Shown piece by piece: positions 24,429-29,383 of a stretch of DNA of 40,830 bases (the first letter of the stretch is position 1; each line of letters begins with the position of its first letter). The stretch is taken from assembly GCA_002084805.1 (NCBI GenBank), contig NBMC01000031.1, positions 1-40,830 on the forward strand, given 5' to 3'. Made by a program: the position numbers and the translations under genes. The notes beneath the pieces are model-generated. The model saw nothing but the letters and a program-made list of their open reading frames with translations, had not been told where the DNA came from and did not search any database. The stretch comes from Spirochaetaceae bacterium 4572_59. GTDB taxonomy: Bacteria > Spirochaetota > Spirochaetia > DSM-2461.

Positions 24429-27400
24429 TTACAGAATTTCCAGCAATCCACCCGCTGAGGTAAATCCTCCGCCGAATGCTGTCAGTCCCAGGGTATGACC
24501 CGAAGGTTCTTTTTTTATAAGAGACTCCAGACAAAAAGGGATTGTACAGGAGGAAGTATTCCCATTGTAACGGATTTCGCTATAGATCTGATCCTCGGAA
24601 ATCTTCAATCTCTGACGAACAGCATTAATGATACGCTGATTAGCCTGATGAGGAACAATCAAAGAGACATCTGTTATATCCTTATTTTCCTGAACACAGG
24701 CATTATTTAACTGAGTGATCATACTTGCAACTGCCTCCAGATAAACCTTGGGACCATGCATGTATATATGCTGTGCCGGATCGGCAGGGACCATCAGGAT
24801 ATCTCCGGGTTCTCCACAGGCTGCCGTAACAGGACGGAAAACCCGTACTCTTCCGCTCTTCTTAAGGGGATGATCTATACCGGCAATCAAGGAAGCGGTG
24901 GCACCATCACCAAAGATGGGTGAGGTAGACTTATCCGCCTTATCCACCAGTGGAGAGAGGACTTCCGCAGTGATAAGAAGGACCAGTCCCCGGGATTGAC
25001 TGTTCAGAAAATCCCATGAGGATTGAAGGCCGTAAATATAACCCGAACAGGCCGCATTGATATCAAAAGCTGGACAGCCAGGCTCCCTTTTCCCATCAGG
25101 CATAAGGGAGTATTGAATGCGGGTCGCCAGAGAAGGTGTCATCTGACCGGGAGTTCCACTGGATACCAAGATCAGACTGAGATCCTTCAGAGTCAGATTA
25201 TTCCGGCTTAGAACTTTCAGAGCAGCTGTTTTTGCCAGAGAGATAATATCTTCCCCTTCTCCGATCCAGTTCCGTTTTTCAATACCGGTCATTTTGAGGA
25301 TTTCGCCCTCTTCCCAGCCGGGACAAAACTTCATAATTTCCGCATTGTCAACTTCACGGCTTCCCCGGGCACCAGCCACATCCACCAGATAAGGCCTGCG
25401 GTCCGCAACGGGGAGAGCATTTGAAAGCTCTGCAGCAGGTGCAATGTTTAAACCTGTGATAACAGGTTCTCCCGGATTTTCCTTTGTCCGGGGTTTGAGA
25501 GAGATCTTTATATTTTCACTTGTTTTGACTTTCAGGGCGGGAGCTCCGATCTCAACGGCCTCTCCCTCTTCCAGGATGAGTTCTTCAACAATACCGGAAA
25601 CGGGCGACTTCATCTCTGCAACCGCCTTATCCGCCTCAATTTCAGCAAGGAGATCACCCTCTTCGATCAGATCCCCCACTTCAACTTTCCACTCTATGAC
25701 CGAAGCTGTCTCATCTGCCGGACTGGTACCGATGATTTCGACAATAACAGATCCGGACTGAACCAGATCCTCTTTTTTCCATAAGATAGAACCCTGTAAC
25801 ATCTCTACAGCCGCTTCAAGAACCCTCTGATAGGATGGCAGTACGGCCAGCTGACAGTCAAAATTACAAGGAACGAAGGTATCCTCCCGGGTCAGGCGCT
25901 TGATAGCAAGCTTCCTGTCAGATTTCTCTGCCAGGAAAGCCGCCACCTCCGATGAAATGGAGACGGTTTTATTCTCTTCATGAACAATAATCACACGACC
26001 GGTTTTTTCAGCCGATTCCAGAACCAGCTCCTGATCCCAGGGAGAAATGGAACGGAGATCGATAATATCACAGTTCACCCCCTGCTCTTTCAGGACATCC
26101 GCCGCTTTCTGGCAGAGCTTGATTGTATTACCATATGAGATAAAAGAGAGATGCTCACCCTCGCTGACCTTCCGGGCGACTCCGAGGGGAACGAGCTGAC
26201 GGGAGACGTCCGCACTGGTTTTCCCCTGTGCTTCGTTGAGGCAGACTTTGGGATAGAAATATATGGTCGGTCGTCCGGATTCGAAAGCCATATTCAGAAG
26301 CCCTGCCGCATCTCCCGCCGTGGAGGGCATCACCACATCCACTCCGGGAATATGAGCGGCCAACGCCTCCATACTGGAAGCATGAAAAGGACCGATTCCG
26401 GGCTTATAGGCACCACAGGAGACCATTACGATCATAGGACACTCCCATCCGCCATCGGTCCGCCAGTACATACTGCCCGCTTCTGCCCACAGTTGATTAA
26501 AAGCGATAGGAAGAAAGTCGGCAAACTGCAGGAAGGCTACAGAATGTTTTCCCGCCAGGGCCCGACCGATAGAGAGACCGACAATGGAGGCTTCAGCCAG
26601 AGGACTGTTTTCCACCCGTCCGGGAAACTGGGTAGAGAGGGTTTTGGTTAAACCGAATACGTCGCCCTTCGGGTCTTCCAGATCCTCTCCAAACAATTCC
26701 ACCGCCGGATTCCGATCTAGGTGAAAACGCAGGGTTTCCCGAATTGCCTCAATCATGGTCAGCTCTTCCTTCCCGGGGGTACCGCGGTACTCTTGTTTAC
26801 GGTCGCCGAGATGAGAGGGAATCTCCTTTTTGGCAGTGAAAATAGGTTCCGGTTCGGGGGAGAGCTGGGCCTTATGCGCCTTCTCCTTGAGACGGGCGAT
26901 AATTTCTTCACGCTCCGCTGCCAGTTCTTCTTCCGAAATACCCTGGTCCAGAAGCCAGCTGTGCATCTGGTCTACAGGGTCGCCCGATTCATGAAGAGCT
27001 TTGATCTCTTCTTCTGTCCGGTAAACTCTGTGATCATCCGCATTGGTATGACTATGAAGACGTTCTACGGAGAATACGATAATGGCAGGTTTACCGCTTT
27101 CACGTATTCCGTCGACGACCTCTTTCATTGGCCGGTAAAGGTTCTGAGGATAGCGGCCGTCAAGTCTGGTAATGGGTATGCCGTAGAAGGAGTCTGCCTC
27201 TCCGTCAGGACGGGAAAAGAAAGTTTTACCCTTCGTCTTGGTTGAGATAGCAAAGCCATTATCCTGCACAAAAAACAGAACCGGCAGCTCTTTCCGGACA
27301 GCATGGGCTATGGCTTCGAGAACATCGCCCTGCTGACTCATCCCATCACCGAAAGAACTGAGAACGATCGGACTGCCGGCCGTTCCCTTCACTACTTCGG

Positions 27401-27767
27401 CGATACCTGCCGCATGAAGATTGCTGTTCCCCACAGGACCGGTCATACTGAGAATATTTCTGTCGGGATCACTCATATGAGCGACCATCTGCCGTCCTTT
27501 TGAATGGGATCCTTCTTTATTGAAAAGGGAATTAAAAAACATTTCGGGATCGATGCCCCGGGCCATCATCAGGGCTTTGTCTCTGTAGTGACAATGGAGC
27601 CAATCCTGCTCCTCTAATAAGCTATTTAAAATGCAACTGCCTTCATGGCCCGCACCGGAGACATGAAAGAAGGCTTCTCCTCTTCCTGTATAACTCTGCT
27701 CCAGAAGATCCATTTCCCGGGCGGTTACCATATACCTGAAGTATTCTCTGATTGATTGCAGTTCCAC
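24429..27767 (-). CDS. Fusion of 2-oxoacid dehydrogenase E1-alpha, E1-beta, lipoyl domain and ketoacyl-ACP synthase III
   Basis: 1112 residues from a GTG with AGGAGAGGGAA before it. E1-alpha is ~1-310: HYRD (60-63), TPP motif GDG (140-142) to N170. E1-beta is ~335-660: GEDL, catalytic Glu392 in SPLAEASIVG, and FHASSMEAL (461-469). Lipoyl domain ~670-748: EADKAVAEM with the lipoylation Lys714. KAS III ~780-1112: Cys907 (INAACSGY), His1040 (VPHQAN), Asn1070 (YNGNTSSCTIP), glycine-rich end GGGFTSAGG. The E1 parts resemble branched-chain 2-oxoacid dehydrogenases. There is no E2 acyltransferase core and no E3. Inference: decarboxylation and reductive acylation of the lipoyl arm, then the KAS III takes the acyl group and condenses it with malonyl-ACP, giving starter units for branched fatty acids or another product. 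Neighbours are broken genes, so partners are unclear. Confidence 0.93.
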   Translation of the reverse strand: MELQSIREYFRYMVTAREMDLLEQSYTGRGEAFFHVSGAGHEGSCILNSLLEEQDWLHCHYRDKALMMARGIDPEMFFNSLFNKEGSHSKGRQMVAHMSDPDRNILSMTGPVGNSNLHAAGIAEVVKGTAGSPIVLSSFGDGMSQQGDVLEAIAHAVRKELPVLFFVQDNGFAISTKTKGKTFFSRPDGEADSFYGIPITRLDGRYPQNLYRPMKEVVDGIRESGKPAIIVFSVERLHSHTNADDHRVYRTEEEIKALHESGDPVDQMHSWLLDQGISEEELAAEREEIIARLKEKAHKAQLSPEPEPIFTAKKEIPSHLGDRKQEYRGTPGKEELTMIEAIRETLRFHLDRNPAVELFGEDLEDPKGDVFGLTKTLSTQFPGRVENSPLAEASIVGLSIGRALAGKHSVAFLQFADFLPIAFNQLWAEAGSMYWRTDGGWECPMIVMVSCGAYKPGIGPFHASSMEALAAHIPGVDVVMPSTAGDAAGLLNMAFESGRPTIYFYPKVCLNEAQGKTSADVSRQLVPLGVARKVSEGEHLSFISYGNTIKLCQKAADVLKEQGVNCDIIDLRSISPWDQELVLESAEKTGRVIIVHEENKTVSISSEVAAFLAEKSDRKLAIKRLTREDTFVPCNFDCQLAVLPSYQRVLEAAVEMLQGSILWKKEDLVQSGSVIVEIIGTSPADETASVIEWKVEVGDLIEEGDLLAEIEADKAVAEMKSPVSGIVEELILEEGEAVEIGAPALKVKTSENIKISLKPRTKENPGEPVITGLNIAPAAELSNALPVADRRPYLVDVAGARGSREVDNAEIMKFCPGWEEGEILKMTGIEKRNWIGEGEDIISLAKTAALKVLSRNNLTLKDLSLILVSSGTPGQMTPSLATRIQYSLMPDGKREPGCPAFDINAACSGYIYGLQSSWDFLNSQSRGLVLLITAEVLSPLVDKADKSTSPIFGDGATASLIAGIDHPLKKSGRVRVFRPVTAACGEPGDILMVPADPAQHIYMHGPKVYLEAVASMITQLNNACVQENKDITDVSLIVPHQANQRIINAVRQRLKISEDQIYSEIRYNGNTSSCTIPFCLESLIKKEPSGHTLGLTAFGGGFTSAGGLLEIL

Positions 27768-28175: not shown

Positions 28176-28661
28176 TCACATCAGGGCTTTGACATAAACC
28201 ATGGGAAGACTCTTGGCAAAAACCTGAGTACGGGAGTTGTAGGCAATCCAGTCGATAATTTCCTGGTCTGCCGCACAGTATCCACCGATGGATGCAAAGG
28301 CTTTAGCAAAAGTACCAAAATAGATATCAATCCTGTCCTGTACAGCAAAGAAATCACCGCTTCCCCGACCATGTTCACCCATAACACCAATACCATGAGC
28401 ATCATCAATAAAAAGACGGGCATTATATTTTTCTTTCAGATCACAGATTCCGGGCAGATCCGCAAGATCCCCAGTCATTCCATATACACCTTCAATCAGA
28501 ATCATAACACCGCCTTCGCGGGTTTTGTTTACACTCTGAAGAACCTGTTCCAGATCATCCATATTATTATGTTTGAAATAACGAATTTTAGCACCGGCAG
28601 CACGGTACTTACCAAAATATCCACCGTCTCCCCTACACTTATCAAAAATATCAACACTCAT
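28176..28661 (-). pseudogene. Alpha-oxoamine synthase (KBL/AONS-like) with internal deletion and lost C-terminus
   Basis: 161 residues of a PLP enzyme that is normally ~390-400. The ATG at 28661 has GAGGAG ten bases upstream, and MSVDIFDKC is a typical N-terminus. After ~10 residues it jumps to KIRYFKHNNMDDLEQVL, which normally starts around residue 150, so ~130 residues are gone. The core that remains is IDDAHGIGVMG (with the PLP-contacting Asp and His) and TFAKAFASIGGY, where Lys120 is the PLP lysine. The match ends at MVYVKALM, and the C-terminal ~150 residues are absent. Family members condense an amino acid with an acyl-CoA (KBL, BioF, serine palmitoyltransferase). Because it lies upstream of the E1-KAS III fusion on the same strand, a former shared pathway is possible. 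Confidence 0.85.
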
Positions 28662-28912: not shown

Positions 28913-29383
28913 TTAGACAACCTTACCGGGATTCAACAGGCATTTTGGGTCAAATGCTTTTTTTATATTTCTAAGGAGTTCCATCCCGGAACTCCCCATA
29001 CTTTCATTCAAATAGCTTTTTTTAGCATAGCCTATTCCATGTTCACCGGAAACTTTACCCCCATACTGAGCAGCCCGCTCATACAAGTCATGAAACACTT
29101 CGGTGAGCTTCTTTTCCCAAAGTTCCCGGGGCAATTCATCCCTGAGAATATATATATGAAGATTGCCATCACCTGCATGGCCAAAACTTTTAATCCGGAT
29201 TTGATGTTTTTCTTTTAATTCATTCGTATAGAGAATAAAGTCGGCCACATGTTTACGGGGAACAACTACATCACACTCATCCATCTCTGTAGTTGAAGCT
29301 TTAATAGCTTCCAGAAAGGCTCCTCTTGCAGACCAGATAGATTCCTGCCGTTCCTGAGTATCTGAAATAAGAACATCATTTGT
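28913..29383 (-). pseudogene. GlcD-type FAD-linked oxidase, C-terminal remnant
   Basis: Only the last ~156 codons of a ~460-residue glycolate/lactate-type oxidase survive. Visible are [32 protein letters not shown], then [12 protein letters not shown] (a metal/substrate His pair) and SGEHGIG. The ending [12 protein letters not shown] is the family C-terminus. An internal ATG at 29282-29284 could start a shorter frame, but the family match continues upstream to a TAG at 29384. The FAD-binding half is missing, so no oxidase activity is expected. A terminator still follows. Confidence 0.88.

Follow-up and report, generated by a model that had tools for sequence, protein, structure and literature searches.

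The stretch of DNA analyzed here, hereafter the window, comprises 40,830 nucleotides of contig NBMC01000031.1 of Spirochaetaceae bacterium 4572_59, and one of its genes raises a question about how fatty-acid synthesis can be started: what is achieved by joining the E1-alpha and E1-beta parts of a 2-oxoacid dehydrogenase, a lipoyl domain and a 3-oxoacyl-acyl carrier protein synthase III (KAS III) in one polypeptide? In the textbook scheme, synthesis begins with the condensation of an acyl-coenzyme A (acyl-CoA) with malonyl-acyl carrier protein (malonyl-ACP) on KAS III. We predict, with reasonable though not high confidence, that the fusion is a single-chain fatty-acid starter, in which a branched 2-oxoacid would be decarboxylated and the acyl group carried by the protein's own lipoyl arm straight to the KAS III cysteine, to be condensed with malonyl-ACP without passing through acyl-CoA. 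The parts all belong to known families; what seems new is their junction, with a lipoyl arm serving a ketosynthase, and no case of a lipoyl arm as acyl donor to a ketosynthase or KAS III was found in the literature searched, most subscription journals being outside the reach of that search. A fuller account, which we favor only slightly, is that this CoA-free start evolved by exchange of an acyltransferase (E2) domain for KAS III, spread over several phyla, and serves iso-branched membrane lipids and, probably, a sulfonolipid in Oceanispirochaeta.

A sequence-only reading of the window had described the four-part polypeptide, and the description holds: the frame runs through 1112 amino acids with no internal stop, and all six of its Pfam domains score above cut-off (Table 1), the KAS III part being matched by ACP_syn_III (residues 901-962) and ACP_syn_III_C (1027-1110). 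The E2 acyltransferase domain PF00198 was not found in the chain (Pfam, E <= 0.001). An AlphaFold2 model has a mean predicted local distance difference test score (pLDDT) of 90.3 and a predicted template modeling score (pTM) of 0.69. The active-site residues singled out in that reading are likewise conserved: Asn170, Glu392, Lys714, Cys907, His1040 and Asn1070 are invariant both in a 27-sequence alignment and in one of 63 sequences spanning phyla, and only for the GDG motif does the claim shrink, invariance being limited in both alignments to its two glycines, G140 and G142. Between the lipoyl and KAS III domains lies a further motif, K-P-x-T-x-E-x-P-G-x-P (residues 758-770, about 25458-25496 of the window), in which Lys758, Thr761, Glu763, Gly766 and Pro768 are invariant in 27 sequences.

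The fusion is a family found across several phyla and not a one-off. Of the 120 top-ranking homologues listed, among them the protein of the window itself, 118 have all six domains, and the two exceptions are shorter, partial sequences. A scan of species genomes with the single window protein as query returned no relative; with an alignment as query it returned 292, of which the best 80 loci were analyzed. The search for further fusions that the earlier reading called for thus succeeded, and its refuting case, two separate genes in relatives, did not occur: a single open frame of 934-1199 amino acids is present in 79 of the 80 loci from other assemblies (at least 1080 in 77), the remaining locus, L054, being without a frame by open-reading-frame calling. 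Represented among these 80 are Spirochaetota, Planctomycetota, Verrucomicrobiota, Kiritimatiellota, Lentisphaerae and Sumerlaeota, with one Armatimonadota bin, two Accumulibacter bins, a Xenococcus bin and Marinobacter halodurans. When the window's own phylum was sampled evenly, matches at E <= 1e-150 turned up in 15 of 392 genomes, 11 of them covering the whole chain in one alignment; the other four are partial, and that in genome G251 (39%) may be an E2-type chain. All six genomes of the genus carry the fusion, one copy being cut by a contig end, and none was found in the 19 other searched genomes of the family, several of which are incomplete. At the same threshold, 32 of the 146 genomes in the class to which the Pontiellaceae genome G040 belongs have a match, 30 over the whole chain. 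This patchy distribution probably reflects movement between lineages. The idea of an artifact, whether an assembly chimera or two genes read through as one, is disposed of as well: the same chain recurs in other assemblies and among the listed homologues, its carriers include the non-bin records Marinobacter halodurans and Pontiellaceae bacterium B12227, no point in favor of an artifact was found, and we give it practically no credence. A 409-amino-acid lipoyl-KAS III protein of the spirochaete genome G002, considered as a natural split, proved to be a second, diverged fusion paralogue ending at a contig end (L126, 5199-6428, minus strand).

The evidence that bears most directly on the acyl donor comes from the KAS III half. 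We aligned this part of 199 fusions and dropped 18 near-copies, leaving 181 distinct sequences, which were compared, in Escherichia coli FabH numbering, with 39 standalone KAS IIIs, each of them encoded in a genome that also carries a fusion (the window's own and 38 from 37 others, one per genome except for two from G026, with none from three genomes). In FabH, Trp32 and Arg151 presumably sandwich the adenine of CoA. Neither residue occurs in any of the 181 fusions, whereas Trp32 is present in 38 and Arg151 in 36 of the 39 standalone enzymes, and both are present in all of five further standalone paralogues added later. Position 32 is acidic in 161 fusions (Asp in 136, Glu in 25, the window's protein among the latter), and position 151 holds 11 different residues, as expected for a site whose need has gone. 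Conversely, the catalytic sites are kept: Cys112, His244 and Asn247 in all 181, Asn274 in 180 (with one gap) and Arg249 in 179. At residue 87, which we take to narrow the acyl pocket of E. coli FabH, 180 of the 181 fusions have Thr or Ser, versus Phe in 23 of the 39 standalone enzymes. To judge from these alignments, the fusion KAS III is without the CoA-adenine clamp of the acyl-CoA-using FabH, with the triad and Arg249 retained, and the loss of the clamp makes it less likely that the domain takes acetyl-CoA alone, the outcome that would have spoken against the earlier reading. Furthermore, when 40 fusions and as many standalone KAS IIIs are placed in one tree, a single branch divides the two groups (100/100), and the window's fusion stays below the NCBIfam FabH cut-offs (220.4 vs 249 bits for NF006829, 187.3 vs 292.1 for TIGR00747); one Marinobacter and one Pirellulaceae fusion pass the former, not the latter.

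A second line of evidence comes from the nearest relatives of the E1 part. One fusion-bearing genome, G034 (Blastopirellula sp.), encodes a second chain of 1035 amino acids (L127, 1796-4903, minus strand) with E1-alpha, E1-beta and lipoyl domains in the same order as in the fusion, followed by an E2 acyltransferase where the fusion has KAS III; PF00198 is present in 119 of the 120 best listed homologues of this chain. In an E1-beta tree drawn from fusion genomes only, with 25 fusions, the Blastopirellula chain and 21 further E1s, this chain groups with the fusions at 100/99; the tree is unrooted and the branch long, and to call the two sisters assumes a root among the other E1s. The simplest reading of an E2 at the KAS III place in the nearest E1 relative is that the fusion arose from an E1-E1-lipoyl-E2 chain by a swap of the E2 acyltransferase, which hands acyl groups from the lipoyl arm to CoA, for KAS III, which would load them onto its own cysteine. 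The family of such E2-ending chains is large (3362 matches, with named records from Planctomycetaceae and Verrucomicrobiota), and its members are often labeled '2-oxoisovalerate dehydrogenase E1 component' by one source.

These two observations, together with genes for lipoyl synthase (LipA) and dihydrolipoyl dehydrogenase (E3), argue for a direct transfer from the lipoyl arm to KAS III, and the channeling proposed in the earlier reading thereby gains support. Among 41 fusion genomes (the window's own and 40 others of unstated completeness), E3 scores above cut-off in 40 (not in G033) and LipA is present in 40, the window's own included (not in G010); the presence of LipA is merely permissive for the predicted lipoylation of Lys714. 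We propose that E1-alpha and E1-beta, with thiamine pyrophosphate (TPP), would decarboxylate the 2-oxoacid, likely 4-methyl-2-oxopentanoate in the window's lineage, and reductively acylate the lipoyl group on Lys714; that the S-acyl-dihydrolipoyl arm would then reach into the tunnel of KAS III and transfer its acyl group to Cys907 in place of acyl-CoA; and that His1040 and Asn1070 would condense the acyl group with malonyl-ACP to an iso-branched 3-oxoacyl-ACP, to be elongated by the ordinary type II fatty-acid synthesis operon. Such an operon is present in the genome (L087), with FabG, FabF and FabV above cut-offs, a FabD-like gene below and a FabZ-like gene named by eye; it also encodes a separate FabH (TIGR00747, 356.6 bits vs a cut-off of 292.1), which would start straight chains as the housekeeping enzyme. 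Standalone KAS IIIs occur in at least 37 of 40 fusion genomes, and the notion of the fusion as sole KAS III was rejected. Since the dihydrolipoyl arm must be re-oxidized, most likely by E3 with NAD+, the 'NADH-independent' conversion put forward in the earlier reading can be expected to come to a halt after a single turnover.

The observations that weigh against this proposal concern the hand-off, the substrate and the gene context. As regards the hand-off, the chain has no E3-binding domain (PF02817 not found, Pfam, E <= 0.001), although the separate E2 of the same genome has one, so that E3 would have to act on the arm from solution. An E2 catalytic domain is present in 40 of the 41 fusion genomes, and the window's genome has a separate E1-E3-E2 operon (L086) with E3 above cut-off; acyl-CoA could thus arise elsewhere. 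Arg36, which we take to be another CoA contact of FabH, is kept in 152 of the 181 fusions (19 have Met, the window's among them), and the Lys at position 151 of the window's protein carries a charge like that of Arg. The E2 and E3 genes and the retained Arg36 would suit a conventional arrangement, in which the E1-lipoyl part feeds a separate E2 that makes acyl-CoA, KAS III uses this like FabH, and the fusion merely co-locates the two. We regard this as unlikely, given that Trp32 and Arg151 are gone from every fusion and that the nearest E1 chain bears its own E2 at the same place, so that the E2 looks replaced and not outsourced. The argument that fusion genomes are without E2 was itself rejected on the above count and survives for G035 alone, a Lentisphaerae bin (completeness not given) with the fusion, E3 and LipA and no detected E2. 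Two further cautions apply to the clamp: the fusion KAS IIIs form one clade, so that its loss may be one retained event and not 181 independent ones, and the sample compared left out KAS III subfamilies with unusual donors.

The condensation step, too, has points against it. Some KAS III-like enzymes of polyketide pathways transfer acyl groups without condensation. Of what is presumably the basic ACP patch of FabH (Lys214, Arg249, Lys256, Lys257), Lys214 remains in only 10 and Lys256 in 18 of the 181 fusions (20 and 19 of the 39 standalone enzymes), and Arg or Lys occupies position 257 in 170; with two lysines mostly lost, the malonyl-ACP site may differ. The KAS III domain might then act as an acyltransferase, shifting the acyl group from the lipoyl arm to ACP or another thiol without condensing it, an idea that gains from TPP-lipoyl systems described as loading an acyl carrier protein, QncN/QncL/QncM and SclQ1-4 (PMC6335953). 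The retention of the condensing Cys, His and Asn in 181, 181 and 180 of 181 fusions speaks for condensation, and we consider a pure acyltransferase quite improbable.

With respect to the substrate, the fusion probably uses a branched 2-oxoacid. Compared with chains in PDB, its E1-alpha scores best with the human branched-chain E1-alpha (1dtw_A, 115.7 bits) and reaches 110.8 bits with that of Thermus thermophilus (1um9_A), the best pyruvate dehydrogenase chains giving about 76 bits; the branched-chain 2-oxoacid dehydrogenase of Pseudomonas putida (1qs0_A) gives only 51.6. The leucine-pathway enzymes LeuA and LeuB, encoded beside the fusion in some loci (see below), lead to 4-methyl-2-oxopentanoate, decarboxylation of which gives isovaleryl and hence iso-C13:0 and iso-C15:0; 2-oxoisovalerate gives isobutyryl, which would start the even iso acids. 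An unbranched substrate, pyruvate or 2-oxobutanoate, could make use of the same hand-off to start straight even or odd chains without acyl-CoA. Indeed, E1-beta scores pyruvate E1s as high as branched-chain ones and is not clearly nearer either; no equivalog cut-off was reached among the 25 NCBIfam models listed, the top scorers among the E1 models being pyruvate ones, far below cut-off; and Pirellulaceae and a Marinobacter, from which iso fatty acids are not known to us, are among the carriers. We think this alternative just as unlikely as the conventional arrangement, if not slightly more so, in view of the E1-alpha scores, the adjoining leuA-leuB, the presumably opened acyl pocket at residue 87 and the fatty acids of cultured relatives. 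Iso-C13:0 and iso-C15:0 are reported as major acids of Oceanispirochaeta M1 and M2, alongside C14:0 and C16:0 (PMC11129491; a genus-level comparison, genome G578 not being shown to be M1 or M2). Two further reports list i-C12:0, i-C14:0, i-C16:0 or i-C18:0 among the major acids of cultured Pontiella and Kiritimatiella (PMC7356697, PMC10880615), and genomes of Pontiellaceae and of Kiritimatiellales encode the fusion (L080, L084 and others), the comparison being at family or order level and not of the described strains themselves. Thus, 4-methyl-2-oxopentanoate is a better match than 2-oxoisovalerate for the window's own lineage, and the even iso chains of Kiritimatiellales agree with 2-oxoisovalerate. 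The earlier reading is accordingly borne out in part: channeling and a branched starter find support, the latter from leuA-leuB in three of the six genus genomes and the iso acids of isolates, whereas its choice of 2-oxoisovalerate and its NADH-independence have to be amended.

Gene context is telling only within the genus. In L039, leuA, leuB, cysD, cysN, cysteate synthase, an oxoamine synthase, cysH and the fusion follow one another on one strand; L155, whose fusion protein (P0007) is annotated as unclassified Oceanispirochaeta, has the same order plus one opposite-strand gene after leuB; L149 has leuA, leuB and the fusion alone. Thus leuA-leuB accompany the fusion in three of the six genomes and cysteate synthase in two of these three, all passing their cut-offs, whereas the oxoamine synthase of the fusion loci passes no NCBIfam cut-off. 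L156 extends from cysD to the fusion, is cut by the contig end and has no leuA-leuB on the contig; in L006 a different gene lies upstream of the fusion, and cysteate synthase is on another contig of that genome. The window itself supplies the sixth locus. With its sulfate activation and reduction genes, cysteate synthase, oxoamine synthase and fusion, this is an apparent sulfonolipid locus in a spirochaete genus (L155, 4468-18502; L039, 512-13579; L156, 2036-10797), sulfonolipids being otherwise known, to our knowledge, from Bacteroidota. Capnine carries an iso chain, and this, together with the genes beside the fusion, suggests that within the genus a sulfonolipid is probably supplied by the fusion as well. 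In Chryseobacterium gleum, sulfonolipid synthesis is reported to open with cysteate synthase and cysteate fatty acyltransferase (PMC11211663); no report of capnine in Oceanispirochaeta was found in the literature consulted, part of it available only in portions.

Beyond the genus, the context offers no such support. Cysteate synthase is present in 9 of the 41 fusion genomes, that is, 9 of the 18 spirochaete ones, the window's own not among them; in the even phylum sample it occurs in 1 of the 15 genomes that gave a match to the fusion versus 8 of 377 others and does not track the fusion, so that a phylum-wide tie was rejected and the link is claimed for the genus alone. When the genes flanking 80 fusions (that of the window and 79 relatives) were clustered, no biosynthetic partner proved to be shared outside the genus, and a conserved operon across all carriers was likewise rejected; the commonest flank clusters, in 19 loci each, are a divergent aconitase-like gene and a second gene just beyond it (named by eye).

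Among known systems, the closest precedent is provided by QncN/QncL/QncM and SclQ1-4, which load an acyl carrier protein and supply glycolyl units for peptide natural products: there, too, the halves of a TPP enzyme work with a lipoyl domain to bring an acyl group towards an acyl carrier protein, but the substrate is a ketose phosphate, an E2-type acyltransferase domain is used and no ketosynthase is on the chain (PMC6335953). The branched-chain 2-oxoacid dehydrogenase (BKD) followed by a branched-chain FabH resembles the fusion in chemistry, with decarboxylation of a 2-oxoacid, acyl transfer by a lipoyl arm and condensation with malonyl-ACP on KAS III; it differs in that the four bkd-operon proteins and FabH are joined by acyl-CoA, whereas the fusion is one chain without an E2 domain and with a KAS III devoid of the CoA clamp. 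FabH itself differs from the fusion KAS III at positions 32, 87 and 151 and in not being attached to a 2-oxoacid module, and the E2-ending chains, nearest in E1-beta, differ in their last domain.

If the proposal is correct, a 2-oxoacid would be converted to a 3-oxoacyl-ACP on one lipoyl arm with CoA bypassed, a new way to begin fatty-acid synthesis, in which the starting of chains would be coupled to amino-acid-related 2-oxoacids and, through E3, to NAD+; the cell would set branched against straight chains by two KAS IIIs with different donors. It predicts a lipoylated Lys714, no requirement for CoA and iso chains on expression in E. coli. The fusion could then be a compact tool for the production of branched fatty acids, for which the four-gene bkd operon and a chosen FabH specific for branched-chain acyl-CoA have been used (PMC5658922).

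Table 1. Coordinates of the fusion gene, its domains and the broken genes upstream of it in the window.
Feature	Position	Strand	Remarks
E1-alpha/E1-beta/lipoyl/KAS III fusion	24429..27767 (stop included)	minus	1112 aa, GTG start
E1-alpha (E1_dh), residues 12-308, TPP motif G140-D-G142...N170	26844..27734	minus	Pfam PF00676, 139 bits
E1-beta pyrimidine-binding domain (Transket_pyr), residues 335-507, Glu392	26247..26765	minus	Pfam
E1-beta C-terminal domain (Transketolase_C), residues 529-636	25860..26183	minus	Pfam PF02780
Lipoyl domain (Biotin_lipoyl), residues 687-743, EADKA motif with Lys714	25539..25709	minus	PF00364, 56.9 bits
Lys714 codon, predicted lipoylation site	25626..25628	minus	Counted from the translation; Lys714 invariant
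KAS III domain, residues 790-1112, Cys907/His1040/Asn1070	24432..25400	minus	Glu/Lys at the E. coli FabH Trp32/Arg151 positions
Alpha-oxoamine synthase remnant, internally deleted and cut short, upstream of the fusion	28176..28661	minus	PF00155
FAD-linked (flavin adenine dinucleotide) oxidase fragment, 123 aa, C-terminal part only, second broken gene upstream of the fusion	28913-29284	minus	PF02913

The broken oxoamine synthase gene upstream of the fusion bears on the history of the locus. Cysteate synthase and cysH were not found within the window, nor cysteate synthase in the genome as a whole (93.5% complete). What is left of the oxoamine synthase corresponds, at 28604-28182, to residues 151-291 of the intact L039 enzyme with 80% identity, and its start matches residues 1-43 weakly (44%), the remainder being missing. 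It thus seems that the window's lineage has retained the fusion while losing the sulfonolipid branch, which suggests an independent role for the fusion.

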